Positions 29,915-32,530 of a DNA stretch of 64,000 nucleotides are shown piece by piece. Position numbers and translations under genes: made by a program. Each line of letters begins with the position of its first letter. Positions within the stretch are counted from its first letter, which is position 1. The stretch is taken from positions 2,232,001 through 2,296,000 of the forward strand of contig NC_014166.1 of the NCBI RefSeq assembly GCF_000092245.1, in the 5' to 3' direction. This DNA is from Arcobacter nitrofigilis DSM 7299 (GTDB lineage: Bacteria > Campylobacterota > Campylobacteria > Campylobacterales > Arcobacteraceae). Below the pieces are notes generated by a model, which was not told the origin of the DNA, did no database searches, and was given only the letters and a program-made list of their open reading frames with translations.

Positions 29915-30790
29915 TTATTTGTCAAATCTTGTTCTGTAAGAACATTTTTGGCAAAGTTCTTCAACTACAATGCCTTTTTTAAATCCATCTTTTATATCAT
30001 TTACTCTTTTTGAAGTTAATATATTTTGTAAACCATCTTCAAAAACATTTCCTAGGTTAACACAGGCATCCTTATCCAAACAACAAGGAACAGCTGTTCC
30101 ATTTGCTAATATACCAAAATGAGAATCTAAACCATAACAAAAACCTTTGTCTGATACAAATTCATTTTCCAAACTTGGCCACTCAAAATAATCATCAAAA
30201 TTGAAAAATATCTTTCTTGCAACTCTTATATTTTTGGGTTTTGCCACATAAAACTGTTCAATGTCTAAAGTCAAATCAAAGTATTCATAAGCTTTTTCAA
30301 AAACTTTTTTATTAAACTCTTTTGCACTTTTTTCTTCATCAAAATTCCAAATTCTCAAATTTATGAAAAATTCAACTTCTTTTTCCAAAGCATATTTACA
30401 AAAATCAAAAATAGGAGTCAAATATTCATCTAAACTTTTTTTATGAGAATTCCCATTATATGAATTAATTGAAAAGTTTATTTGTTTTATTGCACTATTA
30501 CACAAAGATTCAAATTGTTCTTCTTTTAAGTTATATCCAGTAGTTGTAAGATTAACTTTTAAACCATGATTTTTACTTATGTCTAAATATTGATTTAAAT
30601 TTGACACAACCAAGGGATCACCAACTACATGATATGCTAACTCTTTTGTAACACTTGAGAGTTCACTATTTATCTTTTCAAACTTATCTAAACTCATTGT
30701 AGCATTTGGTAAGTTTTTTGGAGGACAAAAGGAACATTTTAAGTTACAGATATTGGTTATTTCGATATGTACTTTTTTAAAATTTTTAAT
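29915..30790 (-). CDS. Radical SAM/SPASM protein with an apparent ATT start codon
   Basis: A 291-residue protein when read from ATT at 30788-30790. The frame is open only back to a TAA three bases before AGC-ATT, and contains no ATG, GTG or TTG until codon 32 (ATG at 30695-30697), which lies after the catalytic CNLKCSFC motif (CxxxCxxC, the SAM-binding [4Fe-4S] site, from about residue 16). AAGG lies six bases before the ATT, ideal for initiation there. The C-terminal SPASM-like cysteines are CYGLDSHFG, PCCLDKDAC and ELCQKCSYRTR. The substrate is unknown. The gene precedes the CysZ-like gene and is divergent from the helicase gene. Confidence 0.8.
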   Translation of the reverse strand: MKNFKKVHIEITNICNLKCSFCPPKNLPNATMSLDKFEKINSELSSVTKELAYHVVGDPLVVSNLNQYLDISKNHGLKVNLTTTGYNLKEEQFESLCNSAIKQINFSINSYNGNSHKKSLDEYLTPIFDFCKYALEKEVEFFINLRIWNFDEEKSAKEFNKKVFEKAYEYFDLTLDIEQFYVAKPKNIRVARKIFFNFDDYFEWPSLENEFVSDKGFCYGLDSHFGILANGTAVPCCLDKDACVNLGNVFEDGLQNILTSKRVNDIKDGFKKGIVVEELCQKCSYRTRFDK

Positions 30791-30851
30791 GCTTTACCTT
30801 TAAAATAATTTTGGGAAGAGGAATAAAATTGAGATATTATACACTATTTGA

Positions 30852-30857
30852 TATAAT
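30852..30857 (+). promoter_or_regulatory. Probable -10 of the helicase promoter
   Basis: TATAAT in the 102-bp divergent spacer, 35 bases before the ATC initiation triplet. A purine-rich AAAAGGA ribosome binding site at 30880-30886 lies six bases before that triplet. The spacer must also hold the promoter of the radical SAM gene on the other strand. Confidence 0.5.
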
Positions 30858-30892
30858 CACTCTTTTAAAATACAAAACTAAAAGGAATAGTT

Positions 30893-32197
30893 ATCAAAAC
30901 TTTCAATAATATAAAACTTTGTTCAGAAATTTTAAAAGCTCTTGAAGAAGAAGGTTATGAAAAACCAACTGAAGTTCAAGAAAAAGTAATACCTGTATTA
31001 CTTAAAAATAGTGATGTAATTGCAACTGCACAAAGTGGTACAGGTAAAACTGCTGCCTTTGTACTTCCTATTTTACAAAAACTTTTTGAAACACAAGATA
31101 ATGATTCTACAAATAAAAGAGTTCTTAGAAGTTTGATTTTAGTTCCTACAAGAGAATTAGCAAAACAAATAGAAAAAAGCATCTCACACTATGGAAGATA
31201 TTTAGATATTAAACAGACTATTGTTGTGGGAGGATTAAGTCATAAAGAGCAAATTAGAAAAATAAATGCTGGGATTGATGTACTTGTTGCAACACCTGGA
31301 AGACTAATTGACCATATAAAAACAAAATCAGTAAACTTATCAAGTATAAATAATATAGTTCTTGATGAAGCTGATACTATGCTTGAAATGGGATTTTTAA
31401 AAGATATTGAACTTATCTTTTCCCAATGTGCAAAAACAAGACATATTGGAATGTTCTCTGCAACTATCAATCAAAATATTAAAAAACTTGCAAAAGAGTT
31501 TTTACACAAACCAGTTGTAATTGAAGTTTCATCACAACGTTCAGCTGTAGATATAATTGAGCAACAAATATATTTAATGGATGAAGATAAAAAAATAGAG
31601 TTTTTATCATATCTAATTGGTTCAGAAAATTGGGAACAAGTTTTAGTATTTGTTAATACTAAAGCAAAAGCAGATGAGATAACAGAACAGTTCAATTTAG
31701 ATGGACTAAAAACAGCTTGTATTCATGGAGATATAAAACAACCAGTTCGAGCAAGAGCACTGGAAGGCTTTAAATCAAAGTCATTAAGAGTACTTGTTGC
31801 AACTGATATCGCAGCAAGGGGAATAGATATAGAACTATTGCCAAATGTAGTTAATTTTGAATTACCTGAGACAACAGTTGATTATACACATAGAATAGGA
31901 AGAACAGGACGGGCTGGAAACCCAGGAGTTGCTACAACACTATTATGTGTAAAAGAGTATGTACAAATGGCTGAAATAGAAAAAGAGCTAATAATCAATA
32001 TACCAAGACTTACACATGATGAATATGAACTAAATGAAAAACAACCAAGAGTTGCAAGATTTAAAACACAATCACTTAGTCAGAAAAAAGGTTTAAGAGA
32101 TAAAAATAAAAAACCAAAAGATAAGGCTCAACTGCCTAAGAAAACAAAAAAGAAAAAAACAACAAAAAGAGATTCAAACAGAAGTTTTGGGAGATAA
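30893..32197 (+). CDS. DEAD-box RNA helicase (RhlE-like) with an apparent ATC start codon
   Basis: A 434-residue protein when started at ATC 30893-30895. The frame is closed upstream by TAA, and the first canonical start codon is a TTG at 31133, after the Q motif and Walker A, so starting there would remove essential parts. Motifs in order: Q motif EKPTEVQEKVIP, motif I AQSGTGKT, Ia PTRELA, II VLDEADTML, III FSATINQ, V ATDIAARGIDI, VI HRIGRTGRAG, then a lysine-rich tail of about 45 residues. AAAAGGA is correctly placed before the ATC. It would unwind RNA in ribosome assembly or mRNA decay. A small unknown gene follows three bases later. Confidence 0.88.
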   Translation: MKTFNNIKLCSEILKALEEEGYEKPTEVQEKVIPVLLKNSDVIATAQSGTGKTAAFVLPILQKLFETQDNDSTNKRVLRSLILVPTRELAKQIEKSISHYGRYLDIKQTIVVGGLSHKEQIRKINAGIDVLVATPGRLIDHIKTKSVNLSSINNIVLDEADTMLEMGFLKDIELIFSQCAKTRHIGMFSATINQNIKKLAKEFLHKPVVIEVSSQRSAVDIIEQQIYLMDEDKKIEFLSYLIGSENWEQVLVFVNTKAKADEITEQFNLDGLKTACIHGDIKQPVRARALEGFKSKSLRVLVATDIAARGIDIELLPNVVNFELPETTVDYTHRIGRTGRAGNPGVATTLLCVKEYVQMAEIEKELIINIPRLTHDEYELNEKQPRVARFKTQSLSQKKGLRDKNKKPKDKAQLPKKTKKKKTTKRDSNRSFGR

Positions 32198-32200
32198 GAT

Positions 32201-32530
32201 ATGATGGATATGATTTTAAATGAAAATGACTTAGTAGTAGGTGCAAGTTTTGAAAATGGAACAATTCAAGATTATGTTGATGAAACAAACACCTATGGAC
32301 TAATAAGAATAGAAGATACTACGGTAAATTGGTTTTTGCATAACCAAGATGATGCAAGTGAAGAGATGCAAAAATTATATGAAAAAGTAACTGCTAGTGA
32401 AAATCATTACATTAAAAATGATTTTGGTGAAGAGGTTGTACTTTTTGATAAAAAAGGAACTGTTTCATTTGAAGATTTTATTGAAAAGATAGATGAATAC
32501 TTGGATGTTGAATTAGTAAATGCTTTATAG
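32201..32530 (+). CDS. Small acidic protein of unknown function
   Basis: A 109-residue acidic protein not recognised. It reads MMDMILNENDLVVGASFENG at the start and contains GLIRIEDTTVNWFLHN and GEEVVLFDKKGTVSFEDFIE; no signal peptide, membrane segment or cysteine motif is seen. The predicted fold is mixed alpha/beta. GGGAGA, part of the helicase stop region, is the ribosome binding site, so its translation is tied to the helicase. It may be a partner of the helicase, but nothing shows this directly. Confidence 0.7.
   Translation: MMDMILNENDLVVGASFENGTIQDYVDETNTYGLIRIEDTTVNWFLHNQDDASEEMQKLYEKVTASENHYIKNDFGEEVVLFDKKGTVSFEDFIEKIDEYLDVELVNAL

Follow-up and report, generated by a model that had tools for sequence, protein, structure and literature searches.

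An RhlE-like DEAD-box RNA helicase gene of Arcobacter nitrofigilis DSM 7299 almost certainly starts with the codon ATC, at which translation in the cell would begin. AUH codons (ATC, ATT or ATA in the DNA) occupy this position throughout the family Arcobacteraceae, and the unusual start type is shared with a set of genes predicted to begin likewise, among them a radical-SAM/SPASM gene, a histidine kinase, a ProV-like ATPase and an AEC transporter. The explanation favored here, which is fairly probable as a whole, is that purifying selection maintains the AUH start of the helicase across the family and that the helicase belongs to a small group of genes whose output would be kept low and set by the translation factor IF3. 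The gene lies in a 64,000-nucleotide stretch of the forward strand (the window; contig NC_014166.1, positions 2,232,001 to 2,296,000), taken from a genome of 3.19 Mb that forms a single contig. Features are collected in Table 1.

The helicase frame is opened by an in-frame TAA (30866-30868, + strand) and closed by the stop codon at 32195-32197, and all helicase motifs, identified by reading and including the Q motif and Walker A, are found in this one frame. The TAA is followed by AAT ACA AAA CTA AAA GGA ATA GTT ATC AAA ACT TTC. As the initial annotation had stated, the frame contains no ATG, GTG or TTG until the TTG at 31133, which is codon 81 and lies beyond Walker A (AQSGTGKT, codons 46-53). 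A helicase started at 31133 would have neither Walker A nor the Q motif, and no canonical codon is usable as the start of the full protein. Translation from the ATC at 30893 yields (M)KTFNNIKLCSEILKALEEEGYEKPTEVQ, which includes both the Q motif and the Phe expected to precede it; this conserved Phe4 is present in the product only if the AUH codon is used. The normally spaced Shine-Dalgarno sequence, initially given as AAAAGGA, is borne out by an AAGGA at 30882-30886 with a gap of 6 nt to the ATC. Boxes similar to the probable -10 element of the helicase promoter are located mostly 33-42 nt ahead of the start in many orthologues; their positions vary, and they are absent in 10 of 81.

A comparison with orthologues in related genomes, which had been proposed as a check on the ATC start, was carried out on 81 helicase orthologues from 15 genera of Arcobacteraceae. 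The aligned start is ATC in 36, ATA in 26 and ATT in 19 of them, and ATG, GTG or TTG in none. An AAGGA or AAAGGA is positioned 5-7 nt upstream in all 81, so that the non-canonical codon is kept together with a normally spaced Shine-Dalgarno sequence and the view of ATC as the only plausible start is upheld. Three of the 81 starts were moved by hand, by one to three codons, onto the codon spaced to the Shine-Dalgarno sequence, and four loci carry a canonical in-frame codon 5-15 codons upstream that is not conserved. In several species of genus g19, about 9-12 nt separate the end of an upstream gene from the helicase start, and the AUH codon is still kept. Searches of genera g2, g5, g8, g12 and g17 did not find an orthologue of the AUH-helicase clade.

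In a tree built from 33 representatives of the 81 orthologues, the AUH helicases take one side of a branch that separates them from ATG-started paralogues (support 100/99). This tree requires at least ten changes among ATC, ATT and ATA, and no change to ATG. Because every family orthologue read has an AUH start, the start is old. Initiation at ATC is thus strongly supported by conservation, whereas the initial picture of a single gene with a changed third base of ATG proved too small: the feature is family wide, and several other genes are alike.

The nearest paralogue in the genome, which is also RhlE-like, served as a control, for which the same 60 genomes were searched and the starts were aligned by the same procedure. 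It begins with ATG in 29 of 30 loci, all Arcobacteraceae loci included. The AUH starts are therefore not created by the alignment method, and a close RhlE-like relative keeps ATG in the same cells as the AUH helicase.

The helicase matches the Pfam families DEAD and Helicase_C, which together with its Q motif and Walker A place it among the DEAD-box RNA helicases. RhlE is its best NCBIfam model, at 448.6 bits, below the equivalog cut-off of 743; the protein is RhlE-like only and not a member of the RhlE equivalog. Core helicase domains are shared with RhlE-type enzymes, from which it differs in forming a clade separate from the ATG-started RhlE paralogue. CshA is the top-scoring solved structure. 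A 109-aa protein without a family match is encoded after the helicase (32201-32530, + strand). In genus g19, a similar C-terminus (IEKIDAYLDDE) ends just ahead of the helicase, which suggests that the two genes may stay together with their order swapped.

Table 1. Features of the helicase region and candidate AUH starts elsewhere in the genome (window positions unless a locus is named).
Feature	Position	Strand	Basis
Probable -10 box TATAAT, helicase promoter	30852..30857	+	Direct reading; leader roughly 25-30 nt; suggestive only
In-frame TAA stop upstream of helicase start	30866..30868	+	Direct reading
Shine-Dalgarno AAGGA, 6 nt ahead of start codon	30882..30886	+	Direct reading; orthologues
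ATC start codon of helicase	30893..30895	+	AUH in 81/81 orthologues
RhlE-like DEAD-box RNA helicase, 434 aa, basic C-terminal tail	30893..32197	+	Pfam, NCBIfam
TTG, first canonical in-frame codon, past Walker A, implausible start	31133..31135	+	Position varies among orthologues
AAAGG Shine-Dalgarno, 6 nt ahead of ATT	30797..30801	-	Direct reading; survey
ATT start codon of radical-SAM gene	30788..30790	-	AUH in family orthologues; in-frame TAA two codons upstream
Radical SAM/SPASM protein, 291 aa, divergent from helicase	29915..30790	-	Pfam SPASM and weak Radical_SAM, ATG-truncated protein
Histidine kinase, candidate AUH start	L164:11120-12265	+	Orthologue starts
ProV-like ABC ATPase, candidate AUH start	L172:14155-15357	+	Orthologue starts
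AEC transporter, candidate AUH start	L163:8619-9533	+	Orthologue starts
AarF-like kinase, candidate AUH start	L175:6609-8141	-	AUH in several relatives, variable

The radical-SAM gene is the divergent neighbor of the helicase. Its cluster-binding CNLKCSFC (CxxxCxxC) precedes the first ATG (30697), so standard gene calling would truncate the protein. AUH starts are found in 20 of the 26 Arcobacteraceae orthologues read, with ATG in genus g4, and the more distant homologues read begin mostly with ATG and in some cases with GTG or TTG.

A survey that relied on coding potential and the Shine-Dalgarno sequence covered 864 kb, roughly a quarter of the A. nitrofigilis genome, and gave further candidates. 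In its refined form, it gave about 12 AUH candidates among 809 genes, and in a genome of another genus (G035) it gave two of 356, which are the same histidine kinase and AEC transporter. Genomes of two other families yielded none among 192 genes and one marginal case among 184, and in an E. coli control of 155 genes infC was the one clear match. The survey scores the radical-SAM gene below zero and misses E. coli pcnB owing to an in-frame TTG upstream, and thus undercounts; the AUH fraction of roughly 1% is a rough figure because of small numbers and missed cases.

The starts of the candidate genes are conserved to different degrees. In the histidine kinase, AUH is present in 22/22 Arcobacteraceae loci and ATG in loci of other families (L234-L236); an in-frame TTG abuts the Shine-Dalgarno sequence in some loci. 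In the ProV-like ATPase, all 11 loci have AUH at the aligned site or a few codons off. In the AEC transporter, 29 Arcobacteraceae loci divide into 23 with AUH, two with ATG, one with GTG and three with TTG, and both ATG and ATA are seen among sister species (L366, L367). The exchange of AUH and ATG is therefore not always prohibited, which counts against the favored explanation.

Several other loci were also noted. A TPR protein (L186:9116-11131, - strand) looks AUH-started, as does a ShlB-like fragment (L161:15127-16041, - strand) that may be a broken gene. In rnpA (L180:9350-9682, - strand), the start is ATT in 29 of 30 relatives and ATC in one; since this codon overlaps the 3′ end of rpmH in a different frame, it was set aside as evidence of start selection. 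An integrase-like frame that follows an in-frame TAA and lacks a start codon (L183:12250-13204; G000:C1:2428250-2429204, + strand) is likely an interrupted gene.

The initiator tRNA is normal, with a GGG:CCC stem and a CAU anticodon, and an altered initiator tRNA was rejected as the cause. The 16S rRNA 3′ end carries the normal CCTCC anti-Shine-Dalgarno sequence. RsmI, whose absence is said to influence initiation at non-AUG codons, is present, and its loss was likewise dismissed. The infC gene begins with TTG in 30/30 relatives of the order read (infC loci L057-L086, L083), so the classic infC loop is absent in that form. IF3 is full length; throughout the order it lacks the E. coli residues Arg99, Arg112 and Arg116, which are nearly always replaced by Ser, Lys and Glu, and its discrimination could therefore differ from that in E. 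coli. Both the infC start and the missing arginines count against the favored explanation. An IF3 change specific to Arcobacteraceae was rejected, because the substitutions are common to the whole order.

In the favored explanation, the strong Shine-Dalgarno sequence would place the ribosome on the AUC codon of the helicase, and the weak AUH start would hold synthesis low, at a level set by initiation fidelity. IF3 would reject the AUH codon, and output would go up at a low ratio of IF3 to free 30S subunits; such sensitivity to IF3 is probable. The helicase, judged by its family, perhaps takes part in ribosome assembly, which could create a feedback from ribosome supply. With AUH helicase starts in all 81 related species examined and other genes of the same kind, the lineage appears to keep weak starts so that the amounts of certain proteins stay small or open to adjustment.

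A narrower form of this explanation is that the AUH start fixes a constant low dose that is independent of any signal and of IF3. Histidine kinases, one of which is in the set, are usually scarcer than their regulators, which agrees with a fixed dose. E. coli pcnB offers a precedent, cited as translationally limited by its AUU start (PMC13009471). By sequence alone, a constant dose looks the same as IF3-responsive control, and it is a plausible, if not quite probable, reading. It is unlikely, by comparison, that the ribosomes of Arcobacteraceae simply take AUH nearly like AUG behind a strong Shine-Dalgarno sequence, so that AT-rich drift would have produced these starts without regulation. The greater frequency of AUH genes in Arcobacteraceae than in the control genomes, the swaps of ATG, ATA, GTG and TTG in the AEC gene and the substituted residues in IF3 of the order would all suit such a relaxation. 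Drift would, however, spread AUH over many genes and often revert it to ATG, whereas the helicase has AUH in 81/81 orthologues and its paralogue in those genomes has kept ATG. ATC also makes up 44% of helicase starts but 10.5% of internal Ile codons, a comparison that ignores shared ancestry, and the IF3 substitutions occur as well in families where the survey gave no such starts.

That the true start is elsewhere, either upstream and reached by a frameshift or downstream with a shorter protein, is very improbable. An ATG is present at codon 7 in some species. The upstream in-frame stops, however, are mostly 1-30 codons away at positions that vary across orthologues, which counters the frameshifted start that had been named as a possible refutation; no canonical codon is conserved ahead of Walker A, and the Shine-Dalgarno sequence keeps its tight spacing to the AUH codon. 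A sequencing error, also raised initially, or a damaged gene can practically be discounted: nothing was found in favor of either, the same AUH feature recurs in 81 independent assemblies, and the helicase frame is intact.

The infC gene itself starts with AUU in E. coli, AUC in Streptomyces and AUA in Staphylococcus aureus. To our knowledge, only a handful of bacterial genes are documented with conserved non-canonical starts (infC, pcnB, sigR, ccpN and cvfC1), and a search of the open-access literature found no paper linking Arcobacter to such starts. The helicase resembles infC in its conserved AUH start and strong Shine-Dalgarno sequence, and E. coli infC was recovered by the same survey. 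It differs in that infC codes for the discriminating factor; in these bacteria infC begins with TTG, and the AUH starts belong to different genes. All start codons except AUG, GUG and UUG are subject to repression by IF3, as shown for infC and for sigR of Streptomyces, which has a GTC start conserved among 32 of 34 species (PMC5472188). Like the helicase, sigR is a gene other than infC with a lineage-conserved non-canonical start and a strong ribosome-binding site. Unlike it, sigR uses GTC or GTT and is one regulator in one genus with demonstrated IF3 control; in Arcobacteraceae, AUH codons occur in several unrelated genes across a whole family, and IF3 control would be expected by analogy.

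Reporters in S. aureus gave about 10% of AUG output when an AUA or AUU start was combined with an extended Shine-Dalgarno sequence, and up to 30% for ccpN in rich medium (PMC13009471). S. aureus ccpN (AUA) and cvfC1 (AUU) and E. coli pcnB (AUU, cited as limiting translation) are comparable to the helicase as output-cutting AUH starts, with the extended Shine-Dalgarno sequence as a further likeness in S. aureus (PMC13009471). They are other genes in other lineages, with fewer reported cases per genome.

The AUH helicase and its companions thus represent an already known phenomenon on an unusual scale, with about ten candidates from about a quarter of one genome, of which four, not counting the helicase, have support in more than one genus. 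Gene finders restricted to ATG, GTG and TTG would truncate such proteins, and the Walker A of the helicase and the cluster-binding cysteines of the radical-SAM protein would be lost. As a tentative proposal, the family may possess tens of AUH-start genes, uncoupled from infC, that would respond together to IF3 relative to 30S subunits and form a regulon defined by its start codon. If the set is IF3-responsive, it would provide a direct test of initiation fidelity as a regulatory signal beyond infC.
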